From a virus: 35,433 nt of DNA. The stretch's first letter is position 1, and each line of letters begins with the position of its first letter. A program made the position numbers and the translations under genes. Positions 11,848 through 35,433 of this stretch are shown one piece after another. The stretch covers positions 1 through 35,433 of the IMG/VR virus record IMGVR_UViG_3300035698_009562. One strand, 5' to 3'. Under the pieces are notes generated by a model, which was not told the origin of the DNA, did not search any database, and worked only from the letters and a program-made list of their open reading frames with translations.

Positions 11848-11848
11848 A

Positions 11849-12748: not shown

Positions 12749-12750
12749 GT

Positions 12751-16425: not shown

Positions 16426-17507
16426 TGAATAACGTAAAAGTATCATTCCCAATAGTTGATGATAATGAAATAAAAGCTGTAACGGATGTATTGATGTCTG
16501 GTATGTATACATCTGGTAAGAATGTAGATAAGTTTGAGAAAATGTTTGCCGAATATATTGGTACCGAATATGCTGTGGCTTGTAATTCTGGGACATCTGC
16601 TATTCATCTTGCCTTGATATATTTGGATATTGGATTTGGGGATGAGGTTATAGTCCCATCCATGTCATTCTTTGCTACGGTCTCGCCAATATTAATGGTC
16701 GGTGCTAAGCCTATATTTATTGACGTAGATAAGCAATGTAATATCAATGTAGAACAGATTGAAGAATGTATAACATCTAATACAAAGGCTATAATGCCTG
16801 TTCATTTCTATGGTATGCCCTGTAATATGGATGAGATTGTTCACATTGCTAACAAATATAATATACACATAATCGAAGATTGCGCTCAGGCACATGGTGC
16901 TAGTCTTAATGGTAAAGTGGTTGGGTCTTTTGGTGATGCTGGTTGTTTCTCATTCTTTGCCACAAAGAACATGACTACAATTGAAGGTGGAATGATAACA
17001 ACTAACAACAAAAGAATGTATGAGCTGTTGAAAAAGATCAGATCACATGGTATGACTGATCGACATACCCATACATATCTTGGTTATAATTATAGAATGA
17101 ATGAAGTATCAGCAGCTGTTGGGATCGAGCAATTCAAAAAGCTTGAATACTTTAATGAGAAAAGAACAGAGAATTCATTGTATATATATAAGAGCATAGA
17201 TAAGAGATATCAATTATATGATTTAAGTCAATGTGAAGAAAAACGATGTGTGTTCTTCTGGTGCCCTATAGTTACTACTAATAGAGAGGCGTTTTTAGAT
17301 CATTTGAAAGAAAAGAAAATTGGATTCAGACATCGATACAATTATCCATTATATAGACAGCCTATATTTAAGAACGAGTATAATGATTTGAATTTAATAT
17401 TATCTGAACTTTATAGTAAATCTGTTGTTGGTCTTCCAAATCATCCTGTCATGACTCAAGAAGAATTAGATAGAGTTGTTGATGCTGTCAATACATTTAA
17501 AATATGA
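16425..17507 (+). CDS. PLP-dependent sugar aminotransferase, DegT/DnrJ/EryC1 (WlbC/WbpE-like)
   Basis: A 360-residue aminotransferase with the DegT/DnrJ/EryC1/StrS pattern: NSGTSAIHLAL (54-64), DEVIVPSMSFFAT (73-85), PVHFYG (125-130), IIEDCAQAHGAS (149-160) with the PLP-contacting Asp, and the Schiff-base lysine in FFATKNMTTIEGG (K181). It transfers an amino group, normally from glutamate, to a keto nucleotide sugar. With the WlbA-like dehydrogenase and WlbB-like acetyltransferase downstream it would fit the WlbC/WbpE step (3-amino sugar); with the PglD-like acyltransferase next to it a 4-amino sugar is equally possible. The stop overlaps the acyltransferase start by 4 bases. Confidence 0.9.
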   Translation: MNNVKVSFPIVDDNEIKAVTDVLMSGMYTSGKNVDKFEKMFAEYIGTEYAVACNSGTSAIHLALIYLDIGFGDEVIVPSMSFFATVSPILMVGAKPIFIDVDKQCNINVEQIEECITSNTKAIMPVHFYGMPCNMDEIVHIANKYNIHIIEDCAQAHGASLNGKVVGSFGDAGCFSFFATKNMTTIEGGMITTNNKRMYELLKKIRSHGMTDRHTHTYLGYNYRMNEVSAAVGIEQFKKLEYFNEKRTENSLYIYKSIDKRYQLYDLSQCEEKRCVFFWCPIVTTNREAFLDHLKEKKIGFRHRYNYPLYRQPIFKNEYNDLNLILSELYSKSVVGLPNHPVMTQEELDRVVDAVNTFKI

Positions 17508-18127
17508 ATGACTTGACCATTATAGGGTCCGGCGCTCAGGCAAAATATGTCCTGGAGATATTATCACCCAATACTTCTTCTATATCAATACTGGGCAATA
17601 ACAAAGATCATATAGGTAAGTTTTTATATGGTTGTAAGATATTGGAGTACAATGAAGATCATATAAAGAAAGCGAAACGTGTTTTTATAGCTCATGGTAA
17701 TAATTCTGTAAAGAGGGAAATATACAATTCTGTAATTTCTTTGAACTCAAATGCTGTCTTCATAAACATTATACATGAAAAGGCGTATATTTCTTCAACA
17801 TCCAATATATCAAATGGAGTTCTCATAAATCCATTTGCTGTTATACAGCCATATGCTAAAATAGGGTTTGGCTGTATGATACATGCTGGTGTTATAATAG
17901 AACACAATGTTGAGATAGGTGATTTTGTAAATATTAGTCCAGGTGTTAAGATTGCTGGTGGTGTAACTGTGGGTGATGAATCATATATATTCACAGGAAG
18001 TAATATTATACCAAATATAAAAATAGGTAAGAAATCTATAGTTGCAGCTGGATCAGTAGTAACCAGAGATGTTTTTGATAACACAATGGTTGCTGGGTGT
18101 CCTGCTAAAATAAGAAAGGTATTATGA
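17504..18127 (+). CDS. PglD/NeuD-family sugar N- or O-acyltransferase
   Basis: A 207-residue protein with a small N-terminal Rossmann-like domain (NDLTIIGSGAQAKYVLEIL) and a C-terminal left-handed parallel beta helix of hexapeptide repeats from about residue 95: VLINPFAVIQPYAKIGFGC, IIEHNVEIGDFVNISPG and so on, closing with GSVVTRDVFDNTMVAGCPAK. The His in IIEHN matches the catalytic base position of PglD. PglD acetylates the 4-amino group of UDP-4-amino sugars using acetyl-CoA. Adjacent to a DegT aminotransferase, this is the usual genomic pairing, so an acylated amino sugar is the likely product. Confidence 0.88.
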   Translation: MNDLTIIGSGAQAKYVLEILSPNTSSISILGNNKDHIGKFLYGCKILEYNEDHIKKAKRVFIAHGNNSVKREIYNSVISLNSNAVFINIIHEKAYISSTSNISNGVLINPFAVIQPYAKIGFGCMIHAGVIIEHNVEIGDFVNISPGVKIAGGVTVGDESYIFTGSNIIPNIKIGKKSIVAAGSVVTRDVFDNTMVAGCPAKIRKVL

Positions 18128-18972
18128 TAAAATATCCTATAGAAAATATACAACAAAGTATATCATCTTTTAAATATCCAATAATAGATAAAAGTACAAA
18201 GATATCTTCTATGGGTAGTTGTTTTGCTAGAAATATAAAGGATTATTTTATAAGCAATCATTATAATTATATAAAGACGGAGAAAAGTAGTCAAGGATTT
18301 TCTGCAGCATGGGGTAGAGTATACAATACAGCATGTATAAGACAAATATTTGAATATAGTTTTGAAAATTTTGAACCGTGGCAGAGATGGTGGATTAAAA
18401 ATGAAAAGCCTTTTGATCCATATAGAGATGATACAGAAAGTAGAGATATTAATAACGTGAGAGTTGGGTGGGAAAGTCATGTAAAACAATCCCATAAAGC
18501 TCTTACTTCTTGTGATGTTATCATCATCACTCTTGGTTTAACAGAAACATTAATGGATACAAGAGATCGTTATGTATTCTCAAAGAATGGTATACCAAAT
18601 CCACAAGATGCTGATATAAATAATTTTAAATATCATAATAGAACACATAAAGAATGTTTATCAGATTTAGAAAATGTTGTAAGAATATTAGCCAATCATA
18701 ACTTTAATTGTAAAATTATCTTATCTATATCACCAGTTGCTTTAGGATATAGCTTTAGAGAAGATATTGATGTATATAGTGCAAATATTGCCTCGAAATC
18801 AACACTACGATCTGTTGCAAATGAGTTAACAATGAAATATAGTCATGTGTTTTACTTCCCATCTTATGAGATATTTAACTACTCTGGAAAACTAAAAAAA
18901 GATATGAGGCATCCAACTCCCAATTCTATAAAACAAATAATGAATTCGTTTGATAAAATGTTTGTGATATGA
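18124..18972 (+). CDS. GSCFA domain protein (SGNH-hydrolase-like)
   Basis: A 282-residue protein with the family name motif: SSMGSCFARNIKDYF (residues 28-42). The GSCFA family is a GDSL/SGNH-like esterase-fold group, common in bacterial polysaccharide clusters. VIIITLGLTET (about 127-137) corresponds to the block carrying the conserved Asn/Gly region, and RHPTPNSIKQ near the C-terminus supplies the late His. Its substrate is unknown; de-acylation or acyl transfer on a glycan is plausible by fold and neighbourhood. It is unusual cargo for a phage. ATGA overlaps join it to both neighbours. Confidence 0.82.
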   Translation: MIKYPIENIQQSISSFKYPIIDKSTKISSMGSCFARNIKDYFISNHYNYIKTEKSSQGFSAAWGRVYNTACIRQIFEYSFENFEPWQRWWIKNEKPFDPYRDDTESRDINNVRVGWESHVKQSHKALTSCDVIIITLGLTETLMDTRDRYVFSKNGIPNPQDADINNFKYHNRTHKECLSDLENVVRILANHNFNCKIILSISPVALGYSFREDIDVYSANIASKSTLRSVANELTMKYSHVFYFPSYEIFNYSGKLKKDMRHPTPNSIKQIMNSFDKMFVI

Positions 18973-19889
18973 AAATAGTCTTAATAACAAAATCAAATAA
19001 AAATATCTATAATAGTAGGATCAATATAGATTTCCTCAAAAAACTTGCCCCGCTGTGTGATGAATTTCATGTAGTCAAATCATTTAACAAAAAAACAAAA
19101 AAACTAATTGTCAATCCAGAAGAAGTATATAATAAATATAGACCAGATGTTATAATGTGTCATGCACAAGCAAATTTACTTGATGGATTTTTCAAGAATA
19201 TACCATGTGCCAAGGTTATAATATCTGTTGACTTTTGGAAAATTATAAAGAACAACAGATCAAGCTTTTATAAGAACAATAAATTTGATCTAGTTATTAA
19301 CAGAGGTCATATAGAGGAGAAAAATAAAAAGTTTTTATACTCTCCTTCTGTTTGGCTGCCTTGGTCTGTGGATGAAAGTGATTTCTTTCCAGTAAAGAAA
19401 TTCGATTCAAAGAAAAGAATAATAGGATTTGTGGGCACTAATACAAACACATATAAGATAAGAAATGCAGCTGTAAAAAAATTATCAGCTAAAAATCTTC
19501 TTGAAATTTATGGCAAAACTGTAGAAAAATATCCAAGGATTTTGAAGAAACATATTGGAATACTTACTTCATCTGAGATTGGTTTATTACATGCTAAATT
19601 GTTTGAAATCATGGCTAGTGGAACGGTGGCTTTAACAAATTCATTCAGAGATGAAGACAATATATTTAAGAATAAAATATGTTATGCAAAATTTGATAGT
19701 AATATGAGTGATATAGTTGATGTTTCAAGAGAAGTGATTAATAATATTGATATGAATAAAGAGATGTCTTTAAATGCTAGAGAAGAAGTCCTCAATTATC
19801 ATACAGATGATATGAGAATAAAAGAACTATACAATCACTTAGACAATCTTTTAAGTGGTAAGTCTATTGAAAAGAAATGGGGATCATGA
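18969..19889 (+). CDS. Glycosyltransferase, CgeB-like (GT-B)
   Basis: A 306-residue protein with MKIVLITKSNKNIYNSRINID at the start of the first Rossmann domain and RPDVIMCHAQANLLDG in it. The donor domain shows KKRIIGFVGTNTNTYKIRN, then SSEIGLLHAKLFEIMASGTVALTNSF (about 198-223), where KLFEIMASG is the CgeB/Glyco_trans_1_2 element with its conserved Glu. It is related in type, but not closely, to the gene at 8608. Substrates are unknown. The final TGA overlaps the ATG of the acetyltransferase that follows. Confidence 0.82.
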   Translation: MKIVLITKSNKNIYNSRINIDFLKKLAPLCDEFHVVKSFNKKTKKLIVNPEEVYNKYRPDVIMCHAQANLLDGFFKNIPCAKVIISVDFWKIIKNNRSSFYKNNKFDLVINRGHIEEKNKKFLYSPSVWLPWSVDESDFFPVKKFDSKKRIIGFVGTNTNTYKIRNAAVKKLSAKNLLEIYGKTVEKYPRILKKHIGILTSSEIGLLHAKLFEIMASGTVALTNSFRDEDNIFKNKICYAKFDSNMSDIVDVSREVINNIDMNKEMSLNAREEVLNYHTDDMRIKELYNHLDNLLSGKSIEKKWGS

Positions 19890-20314
19890 TAAAAGACGAT
19901 GTTATAATAGGTGAAAATTTTATTGTTTATGATGAAAGCCTTGTTAATATATATGGATGTGAGATAGGTGATAATGTCTCTGTGGGTAATTTTACAGAGA
20001 TATGTAAGGATGTTAAAATAGGTAGTGGATGTAAAATACAGAGTCATTGTTTTATTTCTTCTGGTACCGAAATAGGCAATGATGTTTTTATTGGCCCGAA
20101 GACTATAATATTGAATGACAAATACCCACCATCAAGGGGTAAACATTGGATGAAAGTAGTTATAAAAGATCATGTTACAATAGGCGGTGGTGTTACTATT
20201 TTACCTGGTGTTATATTGAATAATTATTGTTTTGTGGGTGCTGGATCTGTGGTAACTAAAGACGTTGGTTATGATAAGACTGTTATTGGAAATCCAGCGA
20301 GGATAATGGAATGA
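19886..20314 (+). CDS. Left-handed beta-helix acetyltransferase (WlbB/WbpD-like)
   Basis: A 142-residue protein almost wholly of hexapeptide repeats: IYGCEIGDNVSVGNF, VKIGSGCKIQSHCFISSG, EIGNDVFIGPKTIILNDKYPP, then HVTIGGGVTILPGVILN and GAGSVVTKDVGYDKTVIGNPAR. The loop after FIGPKTIILND is the active-site insertion of WbpD/WlbB, which N-acetylates the 3-amino group of UDP-2-acetamido-3-amino-uronic acid. The next gene is the WlbA-like dehydrogenase of the same pathway. The ATG at 19886 gives the ATGA overlap seen elsewhere; an in-frame ATG at 19877 would add three residues. Confidence 0.85.
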   Translation: MIKDDVIIGENFIVYDESLVNIYGCEIGDNVSVGNFTEICKDVKIGSGCKIQSHCFISSGTEIGNDVFIGPKTIILNDKYPPSRGKHWMKVVIKDHVTIGGGVTILPGVILNNYCFVGAGSVVTKDVGYDKTVIGNPARIME

Positions 20315-21180
20315 AAAGATATGCTTTAATTGGTGCCGCTGGATACATCGCACCAAGACATATGATGGCAATAAAAGAAACTGGTGGTGAACTCGTTGCC
20401 GCTTTGGATATAAATGATTCGGTAGGTATTCTTGATAAATACTTCCCTCATTGTATCTTCTTTCTTGAGTTTGAGAAGTTTGATAAGTATTTGGAGAGAC
20501 TAAAGAAAAGTGGAAAGGGTGTTGATTATATTGTTATATGTTCACCAAATTATTTTCACGATGCACATTGTAGACTGGGTATGAAAGCTGGTGCCAATAT
20601 TATATGTGAAAAACCAACTGTCTTATGTCCTTGGAATCTCGATGAACTAAAGGATATAGAGCTAGAAACTGGTAAGAAAGTATATAATATTCTACAACTT
20701 AGACTACATCCCTCTATGATAGAATTAAAGAAGAAGATTAACAAGGATCAGAAGTATGTTGTAAACCTAGAGTATATAACACCAAGGGGGCCATGGTATG
20801 ATATTTCGTGGAAGGGTGACGAAGATAAATCTGGTGGTATTTTAATGAACATAGGTATCCACTTTTTTGATTTACTGTCATGTATATTTAATAACAAGCT
20901 TGAAAAATATGAAATTGATATAGATACAAAATATACAAAATCTGGAAAAATATACATGAAAAATGCCAAGATAGATTGGTTCCTATCAACTAGTACAAAA
21001 TATGATTCGAAATATAGGAACCTTACTATAAACGATGAAGAGATAAGATTTGATGATGTGTTTGAAGATTTACATACATCTGTATATAAAGATATACTTA
21101 ATGGTGATGGATTTGTGATAGATGATTGTAGACCTTCTATTGACTTAATTTATAAAATGAGAAGTAATATAAAAATATGA
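20311..21180 (+). CDS. UDP-GlcNAcA 3-dehydrogenase, Gfo/Idh/MocA family (WlbA/WbpB-like)
   Basis: A 289-residue NAD-dependent oxidoreductase. ALIGAAGYIAPRHMMAIKETG (from residue 5) and LDINDSVGILD (32-42) are nearly the WlbA/WbpB sequence; CSPNYFH (77-83) and CEKP with K101 are the Gfo/Idh/MocA motifs; NIGIHFFDLL (180-189) supplies His184. WlbA oxidises C3 of UDP-N-acetylglucosaminuronic acid before transamination and acetylation. With the DegT aminotransferase (16425) and WlbB-like enzyme (19886) the core of the UDP-diacetamido-glucuronate route is present. The UDP-GlcNAc 6-dehydrogenase that feeds it is not in the window. Confidence 0.9.
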   Translation: MKRYALIGAAGYIAPRHMMAIKETGGELVAALDINDSVGILDKYFPHCIFFLEFEKFDKYLERLKKSGKGVDYIVICSPNYFHDAHCRLGMKAGANIICEKPTVLCPWNLDELKDIELETGKKVYNILQLRLHPSMIELKKKINKDQKYVVNLEYITPRGPWYDISWKGDEDKSGGILMNIGIHFFDLLSCIFNNKLEKYEIDIDTKYTKSGKIYMKNAKIDWFLSTSTKYDSKYRNLTINDEEIRFDDVFEDLHTSVYKDILNGDGFVIDDCRPSIDLIYKMRSNIKI

Positions 21181-21572
21181 GTAATACAATAATAACCGGC
21201 AGAGCTGGATCCGGAAAGACCACACTTGCAAAGGAAATAAAAAGTAGTTGTTTATATTATGGTACAATATGTGTTATACTTGATGGTGATGATGTTAGAA
21301 TAGATTTCGATAATGGATATTCTGATGATGGAAGATTAGAACATATTATCAGAATGGGTAAGTTTACTAACATCTTAAACAGGCAGGGGTATAGTGTTAT
21401 AATCGCCGCTATATTACCAACAGTTGAGTGGCGAAATAAACTTCGTGAAGTTATAGAAAAAGAAAGTGATTTGATATACATTCCAGGTGGTGGTTTATGG
21501 GAAGGAACTACTTATGAAGAACCAATAGATGAAGAGAATTATGAGATACGTGATTGGAGAAAGTATAAATGA
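21177..21572 (+). CDS. Compact adenylylsulfate (APS) kinase-like P-loop kinase
   Basis: A 131-residue kinase. Walker A is GRAGSGKTT (residues 8-16); ILDGDDVRIDF (34-44), SDDGRLEHIIRMGKF (49-63) and QGYSVIIAAILPTVEWRNKLR (70-90) match APS kinase (CysC) motifs in order. The usual protein is 170-200 residues. Here the segment that would carry the PLEVCExRDxKGLY region is missing, and the end (GLWEGTTYEEP) matches the final family block. APS kinase makes PAPS, the sulfate donor needed by the two sulfotransferases of this operon. The deletion raises the chance of another specificity or lost activity. ATGA overlaps on both sides. Confidence 0.75.
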   Translation: MSNTIITGRAGSGKTTLAKEIKSSCLYYGTICVILDGDDVRIDFDNGYSDDGRLEHIIRMGKFTNILNRQGYSVIIAAILPTVEWRNKLREVIEKESDLIYIPGGGLWEGTTYEEPIDEENYEIRDWRKYK

Positions 21573-22261
21573 AATGTGAAATAAAAATTGTGAAGAAGTG
21601 TAAGAGTCCTAAGATATTGGTATCAACTCCTTTATTACCAGGCCATAAAATAAGTAAAGTTACTAAAAAGACATTAAAGAGAAATGATATTGATTATGAT
21701 TGGTTATCTTGTAGTGGTGATAATAACATACCAACTAATCATAAACTTTGTATGGAGTGGTACAAAAAGAATATAGGAGAGTTGCCACACTATACATTCT
21801 TTCTTGATAGAGACATTGATCTAGGTAGACATGCTCTTGATAGATTACATAATACTTTAAAAACCAATTCTTTTAGAAGTGATAAGATTATTGGATATGC
21901 TTATGCTTCTTTTAAATATACAGGATATGTGAATCATGATTTTCCCGCCATTCCATTCGATCCAAAGAAACTTCTTCAATCTAATTATATAAGCTCTAAT
22001 TCATTGTATTGGACAGAAATTATAGAAAAAGTTGGGTTGGTTACTGATGATAAGTATAAAAGATTACTTGATTATTGTTTCTTTTTAAAATTAATATTAT
22101 ATAAATGCATTATAGGGGTGCCATGCCCAGAAGCTAAGTTTAAAGTTATTTCTACACCAGATGATATTTCATCTGGTGATAATAATGATTATATGATAAA
22201 AATGAAAAGAGTACAGGAGGATTTTATTATACCAATAATTAAAAAATATGGAAATTTATAG
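21569..22261 (+). CDS. GT-A glycosyltransferase-like protein
   Basis: A 230-residue protein. SPKILVSTPLLPGH near the N-terminus is a first GT-A strand; HYTFFLDRDIDLG (residues 74-86) carries a D80-R-D82 metal-binding motif; SSNSLYWTEIIEKVGLVTDD (142-161) resembles the acceptor-side segment of GT2 enzymes, where an aromatic and a following Asp contact the acceptor. The N-terminal lysine-rich stretch is unusual. It is the last gene of the sugar cassette; its final 14 bases are overlapped by the GIY-YIG endonuclease gene. Donor and acceptor are unknown. Confidence 0.68.
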   Translation: MKCEIKIVKKCKSPKILVSTPLLPGHKISKVTKKTLKRNDIDYDWLSCSGDNNIPTNHKLCMEWYKKNIGELPHYTFFLDRDIDLGRHALDRLHNTLKTNSFRSDKIIGYAYASFKYTGYVNHDFPAIPFDPKKLLQSNYISSNSLYWTEIIEKVGLVTDDKYKRLLDYCFFLKLILYKCIIGVPCPEAKFKVISTPDDISSGDNNDYMIKMKRVQEDFIIPIIKKYGNL

Positions 22262-24500: not shown

Positions 24501-25751
24501 TTAAGTTGGTAGGTTTGTTAATGTAACCTTTTGGTAATACTCACGTGCTCCAAATAGATGATTATGGATTGCATATCTACTCATCAAACCAATTGTTGGT
24601 TGGAATGAATTTTCAAAGACAGCTTTAGAAGCCATCAATTGAATATAAGGTAGATAAATTACACCAGTATCATACTCTGATGGTCCTTTATAACCAATTA
24701 GAAATTGGTCAGATGATTGGAATGTGTCACGATATACTGTAAGTCTTCCATCAAGAGAACCGATTCTTGATACTCCTGTTGGTGCTGTGTTAACATCACC
24801 AGCGACAGGTGCAATTGTGAAAGCCGAAAGGGATTCAAGTATTGCAACTGCTCTTGGATTACCAACAATCCAATTACCACTACCTCTACGAGTATTCACA
24901 GCGATGTCTTGACATCTACGAATAATGTAGTGGTATAGTTCACGATAACGTTCCATTTCCCAACGACCAGTTGCTAGGGCTGTTGTTGAAAACGACCATG
25001 TTCTATGATAACTTGATCCTTCCGATGTTACTGCAGTATCAATAGCTGTGATAAGTTCACGATCAATTTCTGCCGTAATTTCGTATGATAGAATATCCAT
25101 CATTTCTTCTTCAAGGTCAAGACCATGCATAGCCTTTAAGTCTTGCGCGACCTCTGTTGACCAACGACTTCTCAACTTACGAGATTTCGCCTCAACTTGT
25201 GTTTTTTCCACGGTCATATTTACTTCACGGATATGAGTACCCGTTCCTAAACCAAGACCGATATCACTACCAACTACTCCAGTTGTTCCCGCAGCTGAAC
25301 CAAGTGCTTCACCCGCCGATGTTACATAAGAACCAGAATAACTACTATCGAGAGTGTTATGTCCTAATTCTGTTGAGTTTTCTACATAATCACCTGCTGT
25401 ACTACCCGCACGGAATCTCAGTGCGAAAGCAAGTCCAACTGGGCCTGTTAGTGGTTGAACACCAACTAGTTGATGTGCTACTAATTCTGGAAAAGTTCTT
25501 CGAACCATTGGAACGGCGATCTTTTGGAACACACCTGATGTCCCATAATTTGCACTACCAATTCCATCATCTGTACCAAATGCATCAGAATGTGTACCTA
25601 CTGCTGTTTGGCCCCATCCAGTTGTTTCCATTAGCCAGTTATGTTGATTCTCCAACATAATAGCTGTTGCTTTTTTAACTTTTGGTGATGTGATGGGTGA
25701 TCCTTCATTCAGAACTCCTTCCCATTTTTTAATAAGGTCTTTTACGTCCAT
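24501..25751 (-). CDS. 23: Major capsid protein, T4 gp23-like
   Basis: A 416-residue protein with T4-type HK97-fold capsid features: NQHNWLMETTGW (near 35-46), VPMVRRTFPELVAHQLVGVQPLTGPVG (about 80-105), a variable insertion with GSAAGTTGVVGSD, ELITAIDTA, and the C-terminal IYLPYIQLMASKAVFENSFQPTIG and YAIHNHLFGAREYY. It is shorter than T4 gp23 (521 residues), mainly in the N-terminal propeptide. LNE16|G17 fits the gp21 cleavage rule (I/L)-x-E and would leave a 16-residue propeptide. GGAGG lies 8 bases before the ATG. It follows the protease and scaffold genes in T4 order (21-22-23). Confidence 0.95.
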   Translation of the reverse strand: MDVKDLIKKWEGVLNEGSPITSPKVKKATAIMLENQHNWLMETTGWGQTAVGTHSDAFGTDDGIGSANYGTSGVFQKIAVPMVRRTFPELVAHQLVGVQPLTGPVGLAFALRFRAGSTAGDYVENSTELGHNTLDSSYSGSYVTSAGEALGSAAGTTGVVGSDIGLGLGTGTHIREVNMTVEKTQVEAKSRKLRSRWSTEVAQDLKAMHGLDLEEEMMDILSYEITAEIDRELITAIDTAVTSEGSSYHRTWSFSTTALATGRWEMERYRELYHYIIRRCQDIAVNTRRGSGNWIVGNPRAVAILESLSAFTIAPVAGDVNTAPTGVSRIGSLDGRLTVYRDTFQSSDQFLIGYKGPSEYDTGVIYLPYIQLMASKAVFENSFQPTIGLMSRYAIHNHLFGAREYYQKVTLTNLPT

Positions 25752-25781
25752 ATTTGTTTCCTCCTACTTTATTGTGTTTCT

Positions 25782-26612
25782 TTAAATTTTATTTTCTTTT
25801 AATATTTTTACATATTGATCCATTACACTTTCATAAGGACTCTTTGATTCGTCTTTTTTCTCGTCATCTTCATCCTCATCTTCGTCGTCATCTTTTTTCT
25901 TTTTCTTTTTCTTATCGTCATCCTCGTCGTCGTCATCCTCTTCTTCGTCTACTTTACCCTTACCTTTTTTCTCATCTTCGTCATCTTCATCCTCGTCATC
26001 TTCTTTTTTCTCTTTTTCTTCATAAGCTTCAAGAATGATATCGAATTTTTTGTCAATCTCAGATCTATCTGTAACATTATCTAACATTTCCAAAACATAT
26101 GTTTTTTGTCCTTCTGTAAGGCCATCGCATTTTCTTCTTAGATAAACTTCTGAAGCCATTTCTGAAGCATCTTTACGAATCTCAAGATTTTCTTCAATAC
26201 TCTTATTCATCTTTTCGCGTAAACTAAGAATTTCTTCCTTTGCTTCTTTTAGAAGTCCTTTTGCTTCTTCATCCAGAAGACCCTCATCAACACTCAATCT
26301 AATTTTAAATTGTTCGATCAAGTCATGATAAAGCTCGCCTTTCTTTGCAAATTCAATAACTTTATCAGGAATAGTTAGTTCCTCATCAAGAACAGAATCT
26401 ACAAAGTTGGAAAATTTCCCTGTAATTTCTTCCTTATACTCTTCAAACTTACCCTCATAGGACTCGACCAGTTTGTCTTTTTCCTCTTTGAGAATAACAT
26501 TGACTTTTTCTTGTGCCTTTACTTCAATAAGTGTTTCGAGTTTTTCACTAATTTGTGTCTGTGTTGACTCATCCAACTTATTAGCACCTAACATTTCAAG
26601 AAGTTTATTCAT
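25782..26612 (-). CDS. 22: Prohead core scaffolding protein, T4 gp22-like
   Basis: A 276-residue, helical, highly charged protein starting MNKLLEMLGANKLDEST. Its position between protease gp21 and capsid gp23, the coiled-coil composition, and segments such as EFAKKGELYHDLIEQF and GLTEGQKTYVLEMLDNV support gp22, which forms the temporary core around which the head assembles and is then cut up by gp21. Residues about 198-255 form a low-complexity block of alternating Asp/Glu and Lys runs, a strong polyampholyte not typical of T4 gp22. The C-terminal SPYESVMDQYVKILKEN is more conserved-looking. The late promoter box at 26664-26671 lies upstream. Confidence 0.88.
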   Translation of the reverse strand: MNKLLEMLGANKLDESTQTQISEKLETLIEVKAQEKVNVILKEEKDKLVESYEGKFEEYKEEITGKFSNFVDSVLDEELTIPDKVIEFAKKGELYHDLIEQFKIRLSVDEGLLDEEAKGLLKEAKEEILSLREKMNKSIEENLEIRKDASEMASEVYLRRKCDGLTEGQKTYVLEMLDNVTDRSEIDKKFDIILEAYEEKEKKEDDEDEDDEDEKKGKGKVDEEEDDDDEDDDKKKKKKKDDDEDEDEDDEKKDESKSPYESVMDQYVKILKENKI

Positions 26613-26663
26613 ATTTTCATTCCTCCTAGTATTTTTTTAAGAATCATATTATCTTCTTTACAT

Positions 26664-26671
26664 TATTTATA
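26664..26671 (-). promoter_or_regulatory. 22: T4-like late promoter box TATAAATA
   Basis: The minus strand reads TATAAATA about 52 bases before the start of the scaffold gene, inside the 103-base gap between protease and scaffold. It would drive scaffold and capsid, the two proteins needed in greatest amount. A plus-strand TATAAATA at 26679-26686 in the same gap points the other way and is probably incidental. Confidence 0.6.
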
Positions 26672-26715
26672 TATGTATTATAAATATGATACAAATACTC
26701 TATAATATAGTAATA

Positions 26716-27309
26716 TTAAAGGTTTTGTTCTATTTTTTCTATCACTTGCCATATTTGCTTTGTATGATATTTTTTAGCATCTCTCATTGTTGGTTCTTTT
26801 TTAAAATACTCATCAAAAGATTTACCTTCATATATACCAGATACCCAACTCGGGCCATTTGAAGGATCTGTTACTAAATCCCATGTGATTAAATTAAAGT
26901 CTTCATTAACATAACCATCATCAGCAACAGTACCTAATCCTCTAGAACTAATACCCATATTACCTTCTTTTATCAATGTTTTTGCTATACCACCCATAGG
27001 CGTATCTAGTATCTTGGCTTTACCAAAAAGATTACCACCTTTCCACTCTAGTTCTGTGGTTAATATAGCTATTCTATCAGCATTGATTTCTGGTGTATTT
27101 GGATGACCGAGTTCGCCCCAAAGAGATTTTTTCTCTATCTTTTCATTGACTTTATCGACTTCTCTCTCAAGTATAGTCTTCTTATACTTACGATTGTTTG
27201 AATTAACTACTTCTGCACTAGAAAAGATTCCAGCTACATAAAAACTGTCATTCTTACTCTCGACTATATCAAAATCATATGATGTTTCTGTGATTAATTT
27301 AATACTCAT
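26716..27309 (-). CDS. 21: Prohead protease, T4 gp21-like (S77 family)
   Basis: A 197-residue serine protease of T4 type. FYVAGIFSSAEVVNSNNRKY (from residue 23) is the conserved entrance, WGELGHPN holds the catalytic His69, and NMGISSRGLG (117-126) holds the catalytic Ser (121 or 122). The C-terminal DLVTDPSNGPSWVSGIYE is typical. It cleaves scaffold, capsid and internal proteins after (I/L)-x-E during head maturation. GGGAG precedes the ATG. It comes directly after the sheath gene rather than after portal gp20 as in T4; the portal gene is not in this window. Confidence 0.94.
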   Translation of the reverse strand: MSIKLITETSYDFDIVESKNDSFYVAGIFSSAEVVNSNNRKYKKTILEREVDKVNEKIEKKSLWGELGHPNTPEINADRIAILTTELEWKGGNLFGKAKILDTPMGGIAKTLIKEGNMGISSRGLGTVADDGYVNEDFNLITWDLVTDPSNGPSWVSGIYEGKSFDEYFKKEPTMRDAKKYHTKQIWQVIEKIEQNL

Positions 27310-27328
27310 GTTTTAACTCCCTTTATAA

Positions 27329-29119
27329 TTATGCTGATGTAACGAGTTCTGTAAATGATGCACCAGTCTTTGTCGCGACTAGATTAAGTACAATAAATTC
27401 AGCGGCGATAGTAGGTTTAACATATATATCACACCACAGTTCGCCTCTTGATACACGTTCTGGTGTGTTGTTTCTATCATCACAAACAACTAGATAATCA
27501 TATATACCCCTTCTAGATTTTATATCCCTCAAGAATGGTTCAATAAGATTTATGATCTGAATTCTTGTAAAGCCATCATTGGGTTCAAACAAGAAGTATT
27601 TCAAAGCAGTTGAAATTGATTTAGCTAAAATAATGAACAACCTTCTCACATTAACTCTATTAAATGCCGAAGATTTATCTAGCATGTTCTTTTGACCCCA
27701 AATAACTTTTCCTTGACCAGCGAAAGAAACGATTGCATTCAAGCCACTCTTATACAATATATCTCTTTGACCCTTCGTTGGATTCCAAGCTAGTTTTCTT
27801 ATACTTGACAAGATAGCTCTGTTTAGGCCAGCGGGTGCAAACCAAGGATCTGAAACATTATCTGTATTCGCATAAATTCCAGCTACATGCCCCGAAGATG
27901 GTATCCATCTATACACGCCGTTCCATTTGTCATAAATATTAAGCCAATTGGCATATATAGCCGCATAACTTGAATTAATATTTAAGTTTAATGTAGCATG
28001 ATTGCCTAATCTGAAATCTCTACAATCAGTAGTTTCGCTTCCTCTGTTATTTACAACTAATGATCTTGGAACATCCAGGACCGCCATACAATCTTTTCTT
28101 GCCTCACATATAGTATTTAATTCGTCTTTAACTGTTGTTGATTTACCAGCATCAATAAACATATTCACATCTATTTCCTCTGGATTCTGGTATAGATTAT
28201 AACCAGCAATTATTTCATCATCAGTTATTGTTGTCCCTGCTGTTCCGCCTGCTAAAGTAACATAAGCATATGTGAAGAATGTTGAAAAATCAGTAGTTTC
28301 ATGTGTCGATGCCAATTGCATTCTAATATAATCAGATGCTCTATTTATTATTGATTCACAGAATCGACTTTGGCCTTCATCATCAATCTCTGATGGATCT
28401 GTTGATGCTAGATATGTTTCAACAACACTAAAAGTTGTCAAAAGTGATTGCTTTGCAGCTCTTACAAGTACAAGAAACTGATAATCTGAATCAAATAGTA
28501 CATCTGCTGCATCGATATCACTATATAGTTCTTCTGTTATTCCTATAGTAGCGGCATGTGCTGTTGTTGATAGTTCTGATCCCAATCCTGCTCTTACAGC
28601 ATCGTAAACATCTCTACCAACTATAGCAACCTTAGTATAATTACCCCATATTCCACTATTACTAGCTATAACTGATAATTTTTCTGTTTCATCATCTCTT
28701 CCAGTACCGAAGACAGCAGTTTCATCACCGAATTCATCTGGATCTTCTGAATCAAAATCCTCTAAAGTATATGCACCGGCGGATGTTGCTGAACTATATG
28801 CTGACAATGATGCGGATACCGCCATTGTTCCATAAGCGCCAGCAAATGTCGCATCTCCGGACATCACTCTTGTACAGTAAAGAACCGATCCATATCTTAG
28901 AAATCCTGTAGCTGACAAAATATCTTCATATTCTGTTAATGTTGGTTCACCAAAGGTTTCTGTTAATTCATCTACAGAAGTGATTAACGTTTGTTTTTTC
29001 TCTGGCCCCTTCCATGTATTTTTTAATACAATAGCAGCAATCGATGTCGCGACAGCTATTATTGTTGTGGTTAAATCTAATTCATTTATATCAACCAGTG
29101 GTGAGAGATATAATGCCAT
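27329..29119 (-). CDS. 18: Tail sheath protein, T4 gp18-like
   Basis: A 596-residue contractile sheath subunit. The N-terminus YLSPLVDINELDLTTTI with VATSIAAIVLKNTWKGP and QTLITSVDELTETFGEP is the standard start of gp18 (chain exchange strand and domain IV). The C-terminal half holds GHVAGIYANTDNVSDPWFAPAG, LAWNPTKGQRDILYKSGLNAI, RRLFIILAKSISTALKYFLFEPND and the closing CDIYVKPTIAAEFIVLN. A variable, Asp/Thr/Ser-rich surface region sits between about 95 and 350. It polymerises around the tail tube and contracts at infection. GGAGAA precedes the ATG; three late promoter boxes lie upstream. Confidence 0.95.
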   Translation of the reverse strand: MALYLSPLVDINELDLTTTIIAVATSIAAIVLKNTWKGPEKKQTLITSVDELTETFGEPTLTEYEDILSATGFLRYGSVLYCTRVMSGDATFAGAYGTMAVSASLSAYSSATSAGAYTLEDFDSEDPDEFGDETAVFGTGRDDETEKLSVIASNSGIWGNYTKVAIVGRDVYDAVRAGLGSELSTTAHAATIGITEELYSDIDAADVLFDSDYQFLVLVRAAKQSLLTTFSVVETYLASTDPSEIDDEGQSRFCESIINRASDYIRMQLASTHETTDFSTFFTYAYVTLAGGTAGTTITDDEIIAGYNLYQNPEEIDVNMFIDAGKSTTVKDELNTICEARKDCMAVLDVPRSLVVNNRGSETTDCRDFRLGNHATLNLNINSSYAAIYANWLNIYDKWNGVYRWIPSSGHVAGIYANTDNVSDPWFAPAGLNRAILSSIRKLAWNPTKGQRDILYKSGLNAIVSFAGQGKVIWGQKNMLDKSSAFNRVNVRRLFIILAKSISTALKYFLFEPNDGFTRIQIINLIEPFLRDIKSRRGIYDYLVVCDDRNNTPERVSRGELWCDIYVKPTIAAEFIVLNLVATKTGASFTELVTSA

Positions 29120-29151
29120 ATTCTATTCTCCTTTTTCTTATCTTCTTATAT

Positions 29152-29211
29152 TATTTATACAAGAAGAAGCTTATTTTTGTATTCTTATTTCTATTTATAT
29201 TCTTATTTATA
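29152..29211 (-). promoter_or_regulatory. 18: Three late promoter boxes TATAAATA before the sheath gene
   Basis: The minus strand reads TATAAATA three times in the 92-base gap upstream of the sheath gene, at 29204-29211, 29192-29199 and 29152-29159. Triplication of an eight-base promoter core in such a short gap suggests strong late transcription of sheath, or duplication of the promoter region, and matches the high copy number of this protein. The first box lies immediately after the stop codon of the tail tube gene. Confidence 0.6.
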
Positions 29212-29733
29212 TTATTCTAAAGATTCAACTTCAAAATAATCATAATTAAAGTTTACCATGCTTTCCAACGATACATCACCTTCTCTTTGATTCATAGAAA
29301 CTTCGCCCAAAGTAGTTGGCCATATCCCAACAAATTTAATCTTCATGATCTGTTCTCTAAAATTGTTCAATATAATCAATGATGCATCAACTTTAAAATT
29401 GATTTCTCTTTCGCCCATCTTATCTTTGTTATTACTTATATGCGCCATCCAATCAAAAAGAAGTTTCCAGTTATAAAAGTAATCATCAACCATGAAGTTA
29501 ACCAACCATTGATCAAATTCTAGTGGCGCACTGGCGCCCTTGACCTTTGTATTTTGCCACATTTTTTCTTCTGAATTTATACTAATAGAAGGAATCACAG
29601 CACTAAAAATATTCATTACTAAAGGATCGCCATCATGCAATGATGCTTGTGTTGGTAGTACTGGAAATGCCAACATAAAGTTCGTTGGTGAACCTTTATT
29701 AAGACTTATATTACTATCACCACAAAGAGACAT
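29212..29733 (-). CDS. 19: Tail tube protein, T4 gp19-like
   Basis: A 173-residue protein of the T4 tail-tube family. SPTNFMLAFPVLPT (residues 15-28), NIFSAVIPSISINSEEKMW, DQWLVNFMVDDYFYNWKLLFDWM (about 78-100) and the C-terminal KFVGIWPTTLGEVSMNQREGD match gp19/gp54-type proteins in order. It stacks as hexameric rings to form the inner tube. It lies upstream of the sheath gene in transcription order, the reverse of T4, where 18 precedes 19. GGAGGAAAT lies upstream of the ATG. The related tube-initiator gp54 is the alternative, but the context beside gp18 favours gp19. Confidence 0.88.
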   Translation of the reverse strand: MSLCGDSNISLNKGSPTNFMLAFPVLPTQASLHDGDPLVMNIFSAVIPSISINSEEKMWQNTKVKGASAPLEFDQWLVNFMVDDYFYNWKLLFDWMAHISNNKDKMGEREINFKVDASLIILNNFREQIMKIKFVGIWPTTLGEVSMNQREGDVSLESMVNFNYDYFEVESLE

Positions 29734-29791: not shown

Positions 29792-31378
29792 TTATGCGTC
29801 ATTATTGTAGAGTGCTGTTACTTGGCCTGCTGTTAGGGCTGTGTTGTATATTCTAAGTTCATCTATATCTCCATCGAAATAGTTATAACGATAAGGAGGA
29901 TTAAACCAAGGATACACACCCACATGAAGTAGCTCTCGTTGGCCATCCGTGTACAACGACCCCCAGGTAGACATATCTAAAAGATATAACTTTCCATTAT
30001 TAGAATCATTAGCAGCAGATAGTTCTGTTCCATTAAGATAAACATGAATATAATCACCCTCAACAAAACTAACTACAATGTGATTCCATCCTGTAGAGCC
30101 ATTAGGGAGAGCATCTATATTATTAAATAATGTACCCGTAAGATAATTAACATAATTATAATGTCTTGTATTGTATCGAACATCAATACCACCAGCTGCA
30201 TTTACGCTTAATCCAAACCTTGCTCTGAGTGATCCTAAATAACTATAAGAAGTACCTAAAATCGTCTCTTCACTATCAGGCTGACCATCAGGCATATTGA
30301 TCCAAGTGGAAATACTAAAGCTACTCCTAAAGATAGTTTCCATCTCACTAAAAGTCATACCAACTTCAACATAATCATCAGATCCATCGAAATTTAAGGC
30401 ATTATTTGTTGTTCCTGTTGTCCAATTACCATCTGTTATGTTATAAGATGTACCATCATATGAATTGACACTACTATCTGAAACCGACATTCCTGTCGTC
30501 TCGTCAAACTTATAATGAAGCACCATATCTGAATCGGATGGCATATTAGTTGGTGGTGTAACTGGTGGTATAACTGGTTCTGGCATTACCAAATCATCAC
30601 CTCCTAACCCATCTCCAAATTCTTCCATTTTAGTTATAGTGTCACCATCTTCATCCTTCCATCCTATTATTAGATTTCTTTGACCACCGGCCGGTGCCGC
30701 TGATACCGTAGTCGATGAAAATGATCTCGATTCAAATACATCTTGATTGGTATAATAGCTAGTTACGATTCTGTCTATAACACCAGAATCTGAAATAGGC
30801 TTGAATAGATATGTCTCGACCAAAAAATCAAGAGTATAATTCAGAACTCTATAATCCTCATCAGCCATTTCGAGTGAAACTTCAGGCGTGCAGCTCTGAA
30901 ACATAACTTTGATATCATATGTACAACCAAGCTCTGGTATATTCATTTTTATATATATGAAGGGATCAAAGAATGGTAAAACTTGCTCAAGTATTTGATC
31001 TATATCACTCATATGAAGTGACCATACATTTAATGTAAATGTTAGATTATATGGGATCGGTAGCAAATATCTAGAAGTAGTAAGACCATCAGTATCGGTT
31101 GTATTAGACATCTGGAAAGTAGAATTGGTTTTTCTTTCTGTTGCATAGTCTATTGATGAAATCCAGCCTGTTATCATTGGCAACATTTGATCGTCTTTTC
31201 TTTCATTCAACCAATACCAAGTTTTCTCTTTAACAGCAAGCTTTACGGGCACATCTATATACTTATCAACAGTTGATCCATCTCTAAGATATCTAACAAC
31301 TTTAAGATCATTGAAAACATCCATGAATTGTATGATTGTCTTTCTAAATGCCTTATAGTAATAATAAGTTCTAGCCAT
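29792..31378 (-). CDS. 15: Tail sheath terminator gp15-like protein fused to a LamG-like domain
   Basis: Residues 1-260 follow T4 gp15: YKAFRKTIIQFMDVFNDLKV, YIDVPVKLAVKEKTWYWL, MITGWISSIDYAT, PIPYNLTFTLNVWS, IDQILEQVLPFFDPF and TLDFLVETYLFKPISDSGVIDRIV. gp15 caps the sheath and joins tail to head. A Pro-rich linker (262-282, PEPVIPPVTPPT) leads to about 245 further residues with the concanavalin-like LamG_3 pattern: VLHYKFDETTG, ALNFDGSDDYVEVG, SISTWINM, WNHIVVSFVEGDYIHVYLNG and FDGDIDELRIYNTALTAGQV. Such domains bind glycans. T4 gp15 has 272 residues and no such domain, so this is a fusion that may display a sugar-binding module at the neck. Confidence 0.87.
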   Translation of the reverse strand: MARTYYYYKAFRKTIIQFMDVFNDLKVVRYLRDGSTVDKYIDVPVKLAVKEKTWYWLNERKDDQMLPMITGWISSIDYATERKTNSTFQMSNTTDTDGLTTSRYLLPIPYNLTFTLNVWSLHMSDIDQILEQVLPFFDPFIYIKMNIPELGCTYDIKVMFQSCTPEVSLEMADEDYRVLNYTLDFLVETYLFKPISDSGVIDRIVTSYYTNQDVFESRSFSSTTVSAAPAGGQRNLIIGWKDEDGDTITKMEEFGDGLGGDDLVMPEPVIPPVTPPTNMPSDSDMVLHYKFDETTGMSVSDSSVNSYDGTSYNITDGNWTTGTTNNALNFDGSDDYVEVGMTFSEMETIFRSSFSISTWINMPDGQPDSEETILGTSYSYLGSLRARFGLSVNAAGGIDVRYNTRHYNYVNYLTGTLFNNIDALPNGSTGWNHIVVSFVEGDYIHVYLNGTELSAANDSNNGKLYLLDMSTWGSLYTDGQRELLHVGVYPWFNPPYRYNYFDGDIDELRIYNTALTAGQVTALYNNDA

Positions 31379-31735: not shown

Positions 31736-32377
31736 TCACATTCCATAGATTGATCCATCATAATCTAGTATTTCATCACTTTCGCTCTCTATGTATTCAT
31801 TATCGCCATATGCTGTTAATGGATCTGAATTAGTATCCGGATCTAATGTTGGTGATGGATCTCTATTGAATGTTGTTATATCATTCGCTCCTACTATATT
31901 ATCACCACTAGATTGTGATTGATCACTAAATCTAAATGGCTTCATAATGAATGACCATATTTGTTTATTCAAATGAAAAATATGTGCCTCTTCATCAACA
32001 TCTACCAACTCATATGCTCTATTATTCCATATTGTTTTAATTACATCACCTGGTTTTGGGTGATATCCTGCAGAAACATCCCTTGTGAATGTAAATTTTG
32101 GCATCAAGGCATATTGTATTGACTCTTCTGAATGTATACCGAATCCTGTAGTCATTGTTGGTTCTTCTGTTACTTCATATATAATTTTTGTTCCAAATGG
32201 TGCCAAATAACTTGTGTTTACAGATTCACCATATAGATCATCCATTACTATATTTTCATCTCTTATATAATAGTTTACTTTTATACCAGCAATGTCGGTA
32301 AACTCAGATATATATTGCTTAAATAAATCTTGTTCAACATTACTAGCTATATCATATAGTTCCCACGCATTACCCAT
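31736..32377 (-). CDS. 14: Neck protein, T4 gp14-like
   Basis: This 213-residue protein has an N-terminal helix (ASNVEQDLFKQYISEFTDIAGI), then YYIRD and DDLYGES (about 46-52), KFTFTRDVSAGYHPKPGDVI (about 93-112), and AYELVDVDEEAHIFHLNKQIWSFIMKPFRFSDQS. The order D-x-LYGE, 'Y-x-P-x-x-GD', then a V-x-x-E repeat and a closing 'FRFSDQ' is the arrangement of T4-like gp14 head-completion proteins. A Ser/Asp-rich acidic tail (165-213) is extra. It would close the head before tail joining. It sits close to the gp15 gene, as 13-14-15 do in T4. The assignment is by motif order, not by strong identity. Confidence 0.65.
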   Translation of the reverse strand: MGNAWELYDIASNVEQDLFKQYISEFTDIAGIKVNYYIRDENIVMDDLYGESVNTSYLAPFGTKIIYEVTEEPTMTTGFGIHSEESIQYALMPKFTFTRDVSAGYHPKPGDVIKTIWNNRAYELVDVDEEAHIFHLNKQIWSFIMKPFRFSDQSQSSGDNIVGANDITTFNRDPSPTLDPDTNSDPLTAYGDNEYIESESDEILDYDGSIYGM

Positions 32378-32702
32378 TTTTCAATATACTCATCTGTGCC
32401 TTCATTATTTTTTCTACTATACCTTCAAGTAACGCAACTCTTTGCTCAAGATCATTTTTTGAAGATTTTTTTTCATTGACCTTTGATTTTGTTGACTTTT
32501 TTCTTTGTACATATTCTTGCATTTGGGAATCAAATTCACTCCATGAATTATCTTCTTTTGATTCGCCTAGAGCTGTTTTTATTGAATCACCGCCGCCACC
32601 CATACCACCACCAGGATTATCTGGAGTTGGTTGTGATATTCTTATAGGTTTTGAAGCTGATCCACTTCTTAACATTTTATTATATGCTTCTGAGATTGCC
32701 AT
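32370..32702 (-). CDS. Hypothetical protein with C-terminal coiled coil
   Basis: A 110-residue protein. The N-terminal part (MAISEAYNKMLRSGSASKP) is followed by a Gly/Pro-rich flexible stretch (TPDNPGGGMGGGGDS, about 26-40), a charged region with QRKKSTKSKVNEKKSSKND, and a terminal heptad helix LEQRVALLEGIVEKIMKAQM (about 86-105) that should form a coiled coil. It overlaps the gp14-like gene by 8 bases, so the two are probably coupled. The TATAAATA at 32727-32734 lies 25 bases upstream and AGAGGAA provides ribosome binding. No family is recognised; a virion-assembly role is suggested only by position. Confidence 0.62.
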   Translation of the reverse strand: MAISEAYNKMLRSGSASKPIRISQPTPDNPGGGMGGGGDSIKTALGESKEDNSWSEFDSQMQEYVQRKKSTKSKVNEKKSSKNDLEQRVALLEGIVEKIMKAQMSILKNG

Positions 32703-32734: not shown

Positions 32735-35433
32735 TTAAGTTAAATAAAAAATTAGATTTGTTGTTGTGTTTATATATTCTGGTTCTACTCTAACTGGGTT
32801 ATTTACTATAACAAGAACTTGATCCAGTATTGTCCAATTTGCCTCAAGTAGATCTAATTGAATGGTATTATCAAAGTAAGCCATAGAGCTTGATGAACTA
32901 GACTCGGATGAAGAACTTTGACTAGATGAACTCGATGATTCGGAACTCGAACTCGATGATTCGGAACTCGAACTCAAAGAGCTTTGTGAGCTTGATGAAC
33001 TCGATTCAGAACTCGATGAACTACTTGAACTTTCAGAACTCGATGATGACTCGGAACTTGAGCTAGATGACTCAGAACTCGAACTCGATGAGGACTCGCT
33101 TGATGAACTCGATGATTGTGAACTCGATGAACTCGAGCTTTGACTCGATGAACTCGATGATTGTGAACTTGACGAACTCGAGCTTTGACTCGATGAACTC
33201 GATGATTGTGATGATGATGATTGTGATGAACTTGACTCTGAACTCGATGAGGACTCACTCGATGAACTACTAGATTCTGAACTCGATGAACTCGAAGAGG
33301 ACTCGCTTGATGAACTCGATGATTGTGATGAACTAGATTGTGATGAACTGGATTCACTGCTCGATGAACTACTAGATTCTGAACTCGATGAACTACTAGA
33401 TTCTGAACTCGATGAGGACTCGGAACTCGATGATTGTGAACTTGAACTCGAACTTTGAGAACTTGAACTCGATGAGGACTGAGAACTCGATGATGAGCTT
33501 TGTGAACTCGATGATGAGCTTTGTGAACTCGATGAACTTAAACTCGATTGTGATGAAGAACTTGAACTTGAGGATTCACTGCTCGATGAGGATTCACTGC
33601 TCGATGAGGATTCACTACTTGAGCTAGATGAAGACTCGGAACTCGAGCTTGATGAAGACTCGGAACTTGACGAACTCGATGATTGTGAACTTGAACTCGA
33701 TGAACTTTGACTCGATGAACTCGATTCGCTGCTCGATGAAGATTCGGAACTTGAACTCGATTCGGAACTCGATGAACTAGAACTTTGACTCGAAGAACTC
33801 GATGAGGATTGTGAACTCGAAGAACTCGATTGTGAACTCGAAGAACTCGATTGTGAACTCGATGATGCCGAACTCGATGAGGACTTACTACTAGAACTTC
33901 TAGAGCTTGAAGATGTTGAGCTTGAGGACTCACTACTTGAGCTACTAGATTGTGAACTCGATGATGAACTCGAAGAAGATTCTGAACTTGAGCTACTAGA
34001 TGATTCTGAACTTGAGTTTGATGATGATTCTGAACTTGAGCTACTAGATGATTCTGAACTTGAGCTACTAGATTGCGAACTTGAACTTGATTCACTGCTC
34101 GATGAGGATTCTGAACTTGAGCTACTAGATGATTCTGAACTTGAGCTACTAGATGATTCTGAACTTGAGCTTGATGATGATTCTGAACTTGAGCTACTAG
34201 ATGATTCGCTTGATGAACTACTTGAACTTTCAGAACTCGATGATGACTCTGAACTCGAAGAACTTGATGTTGAAGAACTCGAAGAACTCGTACTACTTGA
34301 GCTTGATTCTGAACTTGAACTTGATGATGCAGAACTTTGACTCGAAGATTCACTACTCGATGAGGATTCGCTCGATGAACTTGATGAGGATTCACTGCTC
34401 GAACTTGAACTTGAACTCTCAGAACTTGAACTTGAAGATCCACTACTCGATGAGGATTCGCTCGATGAACTTGATGAGGATTCACTGCTCGAACTTGAAC
34501 TTGAACTCTCGGAACTTGAACTCGAAGATTCACTACTCGATGAAGATTCGCTCGATGAACTTGAACTCTCAGAACTTGAACTTGAAGATCCGCTACTCGA
34601 TGAGGATTCGCTCGATGAACTTGATGAGGATTCACTGCTCGAACTTGAACTTGAACTTGAACTTTCAGAACTTGAAGAACTCTCACTGCTCGATGAGGAC
34701 TCGCTCGATGAACTACTTGAACTTTCGGAACTCGATGAACTTGAACTCTTAGAACTCGACGAAGATTCGCTCGATGAACTCGATGAGGATTCACTGCTCG
34801 AACTTGAACTTGAACTTTCAGAACTTGAACTTGAACTCTCGGAACTTGAACTCGATGAGGACTCACTCGATGAACTACTAGATTCTGAACTCGATGAACT
34901 CGATGAGGACTCACTCGATGATGAACTCTCGGAACTTGAACTCGATGAGGATTCACTCGATGAACTACTAGATTGTGAACTCGATGAGGACTCGCTCGAT
35001 GATGAACTATCCGAACTCGATTCTGAACTCGATGAACTAGATTGTGAACTCGATGAACTATCCGAACTCGATTCTGAACTCGATGAACTATCCGAACTCG
35101 ATTCTGAACTCGATGAACTAGATTGCGAACTCGATGAACTAGATTGTGAACTTGATGAACTATCCGAACTCGATTCTGAACTCGATGAACTAGATTCTGA
35201 ACTCGATGATGAACTCTCACTCGATGATGAACTCTCACTCGATGAACTACTAGATTGTGAACTCGAGCTGGATGAGGACTCAGAACTCGAGCTAGACGAT
35301 TGTGAACTCGAACTTTTGGAACTCGAAGAACTCGAATTTGATGAGGACTCAGAACTCGAGCTAGACGATTGTGAACTTGAACTTTTGGAACTCGAAGAAC
35401 TCGATTGAGAACTCGAAGAACTCGATTGAGAAC
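32735..35433 (-). CDS. Giant serine-rich repeat protein (5' end beyond the window)
   Basis: One minus-strand frame is open from the right edge to the TAA at 32735-32737, giving at least 898 residues. About 849 of these (32885 upward) are almost wholly Ser, in blocks of four to six or so broken by single Glu or Gln, with rare Lys, Asn, Leu, Ala, Arg and Thr. All six Ser codons are used in near-repeats. A 49-residue ordinary domain closes the protein (MAYFDNTIQLDLLEANWTIL to NLIFYLT). A TTG at 32977 in the same frame is not needed as a start. Position in the late operon suggests a virion component, such as a fibre or decoration stalk. It could be O-glycosylated; see findings. Confidence 0.8.
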   Translation of the reverse strand, partial: SQSSSSSSQSSSSSSKSSSSQSSSSSSESSSNSSSSSSKSSSSQSSSSSSESSSSSSSQSSSSSSESSSSSESSSSSSESSSSSSESSSDSSSSSQSSSSSSQSSSSSSESSSDSSSSSESSSDSSSSSQSSSSSSESSSDSSSSSESSSSSQSSSSSSESSSSSSSESSSSSESSSSSSSSESSSSSSESSSSSSSESSSSSSESSSSSSSSESSSSSSSESSSSSKSSSSSSSESSSSSSSESSSSSESSSSSESSSSSSSSSSESSSSSSSESSSSSGSSSSSSESSSSSSESSSSSESSSSSSESSSSSSSSESSSSSSSESSSSSGSSSSSSESSSSSSSSESSSSSSSESSSSSESSSQSSASSSSSSESSSSSTSSSSSSTSSSSSSESSSSSESSSSSSSESSSSSSSESSSSSSSESSSSSSSESSSSSSSESSSSSESSSSSQSSSSSSESSSSSSSESSSNSSSESSSSSSSESSSSSSSSSQSSSSSSESSSSTSSSSRSSSSKSSSSSASSSSQSSSSSSQSSSSSSQSSSSSSSQSSSSSSSESSSSSESSSSSESSSSSQSSSSSSSQSSSSSSSESSSSSSSESSSSSSSESSSSSESSSSSESSSSSSSSQSSLSSSSSQSSSSSSQSSSSSSQSSSSSSSQSSSSSSQSSSSESSSSSESSSSSSSESSSSSSSESSSSQSSSSQSSSSSSESSSSSSSSESSSSSSESSSSSESSSSQSSSSQSSSSSSQSSSSSSSQSSSSSSQSSSSSSSQSSSSSSESSSSSSSESSSSSSESSSSSESSSSSSSSESSSSSSQSSLSSSSESSSSSSESSSSSSQSSSSESSSSSSMAYFDNTIQLDLLEANWTILDQVLVIVNNPVRVEPEYINTTTNLIFYLT
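32885..35433 (-). repeat. Degenerate tandem-repeat DNA encoding poly-serine
   Basis: About 2.5 kb built from short units such as GAACTCGATGA, GAACTTGAGCT and GATTCACTGCTC (plus-strand view), with larger repeats of roughly 50-100 bases in 34.3-34.7 kb and again near 35.0-35.4 kb. All unit changes keep the codon register of the serine frame. The array extends past the right edge, so its total length is unknown, and it is a likely site for recombination and assembly collapse. Confidence 0.85.

Follow-up and report, generated by a model that had tools for sequence, protein, structure and literature searches.

The Ser-rich gene lies at one end of the window (the whole 35,433-nt stretch of DNA analysed, IMG/VR record IMGVR_UViG_3300035698_009562), on the minus strand at 32735..35431, where the stop codon ends at 32735. 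Its frame is open for 898 codons and runs past the contig end at 35431, with no start in the window; the 5′ end of the gene falls beyond the contig end, and the N-terminal part of this copy, together with any lectin domain it has, lies outside the contig, leaving only the C-terminus side visible. An exact end-pattern search made to extend the gene past the contig end returned 0 matches. The visible part is the 3′ portion of a structural-region gene and comprises a polyserine tract of at least 849 residues (32885..35431, minus strand), recognised by its composition, run lengths and synonymous bias, and a unique C-terminus of 49 aa plus stop (32735..32884, minus strand; MAYFDNTIQLDLLEANW...EPEYINTTTNLIFYLT). 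The figure of 849 Ser-rich residues given in the initial annotation is exact, whilst its description of the protein as ‘serine-only’ is an overstatement: the tract contains 722 Ser, 73 Glu, 34 Gln and 20 other residues (85% Ser, 9% Glu and 4% Gln).

The gene forms the upstream end of a late structural block. Directly downstream is a 110-aa gene (32370..32702, minus strand), which is conserved beside the Ser gene in relatives and has no PHROG match, followed by a T4 gp14-like head-closure (neck) protein (31736..32377, minus strand; PHROG 679 head closure Hc2, 2.7e-9) that is 81% identical to its counterpart in the related locus L003. A T4 gp15-like tail sheath stabiliser (29792..31378, minus strand; PF16724, 1.3e-46) carries a C-terminal LamG/ConA-like domain (PF13385, 1.5e-11); the gp15 proteins of relatives are 255-256 aa long and are without the LamG fusion, such that the addition of a lectin to this tail-terminator protein is seen in this phage only, among those compared. 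PHROG matches identify a tail tube or gp3-like protein, the tail sheath, prohead protease, scaffold and major capsid protein at 24501..29733 (minus strand), the last being 33-38% identical to those of Kyanoviridae and other T4-like phages. Homologues of gp14, gp15, tube, sheath, protease, scaffold and gp23 occur in order, and on this gene content the window is a contig of an uncultured T4-like myovirus. Beside the major capsid gene lie a GIY-YIG/NUMOD3 homing endonuclease (22248-22925, plus strand) and an endonuclease-like ORF (22935-24362, minus strand). In the cultured Kyanoviridae phage C48C1, genes for a structural protein and a tail fibre are located upstream of the neck genes.

A reading frame of this length and composition is far outside chance. 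In a dinucleotide null built from the tract DNA (300 trials), the longest stop-free run averages 209 codons with a maximum of 439, and the Ser fraction is at most 0.30, compared with 849 codons at 0.85 Ser in the tract. The uninterrupted frame had initially been taken as a sign of selection; the frame is indeed open, but its weight as evidence is less than claimed, as the +1 frame of the tract is also poor in stops (2 in 849 codons; codon shuffling gives 0.8 on average). This near absence is mechanical, since the second base of TCN and AGY codons is C or G, and it accounts for the long overlapping ORFs in the program-made list. Frame openness was consequently dropped as proof of coding in favour of a synonymous test, in which in-frame 8-codon stretches differing by one base were compared pairwise. 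In the Ser frame, the third codon position accounts for 139 of 167 single-base differences, and the synonymous share is 83% versus 24% expected; in the other two frames the bias is reversed (3% and 8% synonymous versus 25% and 21% expected). As the stretch pairs are not independent, no P value is given for this bias; its direction is nonetheless alike in five genes including that of the window, with 86–99% of differences in the Ser frame synonymous in four relatives. Codons turn over whilst serine is kept: in the window TCG makes up 17% of serine codons, compared with 1% in L003, and only 2–10% of the window's 15-mers are shared with the four relatives, whose tracts are nonetheless more than 80% Ser. 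Purifying selection thus maintains serine at the protein level in the window and in these four relatives, which bears out the earlier suggestion of selection on the protein.

Frame-breaking length variants, whose presence in reads at high frequency was named at the outset as what would count against a selected protein, do occur between assemblies. Among the assemblies that several samples yielded for one related virus, point differences are almost absent but repeat indels are present, including non-triplet indels of 61 nt (L002 versus L003), 49 nt (L011 versus L012) and, elsewhere, 64 and 70 nt. At the 61-nt and 49-nt breaks, however, versions with an intact frame exist in another sample (L003 and L012, respectively) with nearly identical flanking DNA, making short-read assembly error the likelier cause.

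The length of the Ser runs in the window is controlled. Runs average 5.6 residues with a maximum of 10, whereas in 1000 composition-matched shuffles the maximum run was never below 18; Glu or Gln interrupts the tract every 1-10 residues, mostly every 4-8. The interrupting residue differs by locus, being nearly always Glu or Gln in the window, Glu in L012, Glu or Val in L013 and Lys or Arg in L067, and L079 contains an unbroken run of 259 Ser encoded by thoroughly mixed codons. L067 and L079 rule out regular Glu/Gln as a universal rule; interruption of Ser runs is common, not universal.

The C-terminal 49 residues (MAYFDNTIQLDLLEANWTILDQVLVIVNNPVRVEPEYINTTTNLIFYLT) are 59-67% identical to the corresponding segments of L003, L005 and L009, with 22 of 49 positions invariant in the four phages. 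In all four the segment is joined in frame to the Ser tract. The possibility that it is an independent small gene beginning with MAYFDN was rejected: no ribosome-binding site precedes this internal Met, which is absent from the corresponding position in L003 and L005, and the relatives carry the segment as an in-frame fusion. The invariant positions suggest that this segment contacts a conserved part of the virion. A tblastn search with the C-terminus and the lectin domain described below against 50,697 phage records found no cultured relatives.

Using the C-terminus of the window, intact homologues were located in IMG/VR (L003, 1671 aa; L005, 1130 aa; L009, 1037 aa), each with a ribosome-binding site and, at the N-terminus, short repeats of the FxDTxxVxFxD type. 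The gene of L003 is complete, its start preceded by AGAGGA, and encodes, in order, MIDAWFKDTPDIDFRDTEDVSW motifs, two Ser tracts (49 and 153 aa), a globular domain of 211 aa (1666–2298), a 1193-aa Ser tract and the C-terminus; L005 has the same domain order. A ConA-like lectin/CBM domain flanked by Ser tracts is thus present in two of the three intact homologues (L003 and L005). L009 has the N-terminal motifs and retains ~970 Ser-tract residues and the C-terminus without a globular domain, which indicates that the lectin domain is not obligatory. All three end in the window-type C-terminus and sit upstream of the T4 gp14-like neck gene. A paralogue, L012, is at least 2122 aa long and 83% Ser, with repeated VVFKDTGAVEWTDTDDVVFED motifs; in the paralogue region of L023 (7166-7695), tandem repeats of the IIGDGLDKQGKTET type follow a Ser tract. 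The sizes of the intact relatives (1037-1671 aa) and of the paralogue (more than 2100 aa) agree with the initial proposal that the protein is longer than the window shows.

A moderate structure model (pLDDT 71, pTM 0.73) gives the globular domain of L003 a beta jelly-roll fold. Foldseek ranks the CBM2 module of the evolved Dit of phage J-1 first among the PDB matches of this domain; other top matches are alginate lyases and the legume and ERGIC-53 lectins (ConA-like), although TM-scores to known lectins are only ~0.5. Its BFVD matches are domains of phage tail and esterase proteins. Of 28 loci that have this lectin domain, some of which represent the same virus, 9 carry polyserine tracts in the ORF that encodes it.

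Polyserine tethers appear, from these searches, to be recurrent among uncultured phages. The Ser/Glu codon-class pattern occurs in 16 stretches of viral contigs and in none of 84,980 bacterial and archaeal species genomes; as the pattern is absent there, these genomes provide no evidence that the tract was captured from a host. A broader Ser pattern combined with a lectin search yielded at least 99 loci whose tracts are no shorter than 40 aa; among the matches listed are a siphovirus-like tail locus (L021) with LamG and a Ser tract in a tail gene, a 273-kb contig (L118) and a 1182-aa tract (L067). L013 (3878-10537) encodes a 2219-aa protein in which five polyserine tracts lie between two lectin-like and BNR/Asp-box-like modules. 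The protein at 504-3254 (minus strand) of L079 ends in ~411 residues that are 99% Ser with fully mixed codons. A small CxxCGxCCM protein, which has no Pfam match, directly follows the giant Ser gene in L023 (3441-3809) and L013 (10507-10851). An open-literature search returned no paper on polyserine stalks in phages, an absence that is itself weak evidence.

The ORF probably, though by no means certainly, belongs to a virion adhesin or fibre encoded by a T4-like phage, of which it would make up at least the C-terminal half, with polyserine serving as a tether. This reading is favoured because full-length homologues combine the N-terminal motif, a Ser tract, a lectin, a further Ser tract and the same C-terminus at the same gene position; because the gene's position upstream of gp14 and gp15 recalls that of the structural and tail-fibre genes of C48C1; and because L013, L021 and the nine lectin loci with Ser tracts have a like architecture. 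The jelly-roll model of the lectin, the purifying selection on Ser and the controlled run length also count in its favour. An extended low-complexity stalk in the structural region, as envisaged from the start, is supported by the composition, the gene neighbours and the relatives. In the proposed mechanism, the tract would act as a long, disordered, hydrophilic stalk keeping small folded modules apart, namely the N-terminal FxDTxxVxFxD motifs and, as in two of the three intact relatives, the ConA-like carbohydrate-binding domain. The conserved 49-residue C-terminus would probably dock on the particle near the neck; this docking is a guess, the structure model of the segment being poor (pLDDT 62, pTM 0.29). 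The tether may allow the lectin to reach and hold surface glycans, of the host or the environment, at a particle-scale distance, with Glu or Gln every 4-8 residues presumably keeping the serine polymer soluble and unaggregated. An extended residue spans ~0.34 nm by general polymer geometry, and 849 fully extended residues would measure ~290 nm.

Several known systems resemble this arrangement in part. The polyserine linkers (PSL) of Saccharophagus/Microbulbifer and Cellvibrio carbohydrases (Howard et al. 2004, cited in PMC2386152) are likewise near-pure Ser tracts that link carbohydrate-binding and other folded modules. The tract of the window has the matching composition (85% Ser, under selection as judged by the synonymous bias), and Ser tracts part folded modules in L003, L005, L013, L021 and L052, the window itself showing the C-terminus side only. 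The PSL listed in the tables of PMC2386152 are, however, 25-58 aa long and belong to secreted enzymes, whereas the tract here is at least 849 aa, Glu/Gln-regular and encoded in a phage structural operon; with relatives reaching ~1,200 aa and a paralogue more than 1,600, the phage tracts are longer by at least an order of magnitude and lack the shortness of PSL, which are tens of residues in length. By analogy, the stalk of the window would be an extreme, phage-borne case of a polyserine linker. The T4 wac/fibritin and gp10-gp12 fibre region is similar in its position upstream of the neck genes gp13-gp14-gp15, but here polyserine replaces the coiled coil, and homology to the fibritin (wac) family was not detected, the 49-aa C-terminus having no PHROG match, the Ser tract not lending itself to sequence comparison and the N-terminus lying outside the window. 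The CBM2 module of the phage J-1 evolved Dit, alongside other ConA-like domains of phage tails, is the best structural match of the lectin domain in the relatives and is likewise a carbohydrate-binding tail accessory; the J-1 module differs in that the TM-score is ~0.5 with 13% identity, and the domain of the relatives is linked through polyserine, not by insertion into Dit.

The serine-rich repeat glycoproteins (SRRP) GspB, Fap1 and SraP, which use accessory Sec (PMC6973325), also combine a very long Ser-rich stalk bearing a ligand-binding module with glycosyltransferases encoded nearby. They raise the alternative that the stalk is mucin-like, its serines being O-glycosylated and perhaps sulfated in the infected cell by the phage's own enzymes to form a rigid brush that would extend reach or provide shielding, as in SRR adhesins. 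The same contig carries a glycan cluster of ~16 kb (6548..22261, plus strand; Pfam and NCBIfam matches) encoding NDP-sugar epimerases, an aminotransferase closest to PseC/LegC types, a NeuD-family acetyltransferase and several glycosyltransferases, as well as two sulfotransferase-like proteins and an APS-kinase-like protein. The latter represent a possible PAPS supply, and a cluster with these members is unusual for a phage; no APS kinase was found in the fragmentary contigs of the relatives L002 and L004. Glycosyltransferase and methyltransferase genes lie directly upstream of a second Ser gene in two related phages, L024 and the virus represented by L010 and L011, and virion glycosylation has been reported for mycobacteriophages in work cited in PMC12619734. 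However, unlike SRRP, the stalk here is phage-encoded and near-pure Ser, and a GtfA/GtfB-type priming pair is not seen: a TIGR02918 (GtfA) scan of five glycosyltransferase-type proteins from the incomplete contig gave 24.7 bits at best (a GT4 protein) against a cut-off of 574.6, with no other match, and this result does not support glycosylation of the GtfA/GtfB SRRP type with DUF1975. Moreover, large and T4-like phages commonly carry glycan clusters for different purposes, on DNA or the host surface (other uses are documented in PMC12619734), and the contig fragments of L009, L005, L013 and L021 contain no epimerase or PF13524 glycosyltransferase. The connection between cluster and stalk is one of guilt by association; the cluster is a possible modifier of the stalk, and we regard the mucin-like reading as doubtful. 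A phage-encoded mucin in the full sense, with the 16-kb pathway decorating the giant polyserine stalk to produce a heavily O-glycosylated, possibly sulfated virion fibre, seems unlikely.

Polyserine could also act alone, as a phosphorylated or anionic entropic brush, a decoy, or a polymer for retention in biofilm or mucus, with the lectin incidental. The lectin-free L009, which keeps its long Ser tract and C-terminus, is consistent with this, as is the net negative charge conferred by regular Glu. In most multi-domain cases, however, Ser tracts lie between folded modules (L003, L005, L013 and L052), and the tract of L067 is basic, so the sign of the charge is not general; this explanation is improbable. 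Least probable is DNA-level tandem repeat expansion under little selection, with the frame a by-product of triplet-multiple units and the low stop density of Ser codons, since a weak 24-nt periodicity, the mechanically stop-poor +1 frame and the frame-breaking indels are outweighed by the synonymous bias in the Ser frame and its reversal elsewhere, by codon use that varies between relatives whilst Ser is kept, and by the thoroughly mixed codons of the L079 tract.

Stalks of this kind are easily lost from view, being discarded as low-complexity noise, broken by short-read assembly and masked by the BLAST low-complexity filter. If they are adhesin tethers, they would give access to host or environmental glycans in a way that differs from that of trimeric beta-helical or coiled-coil fibres. 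They also offer natural test cases for the maintenance of composition in a disordered polymer, the interruption of Ser runs being a measurable constraint.
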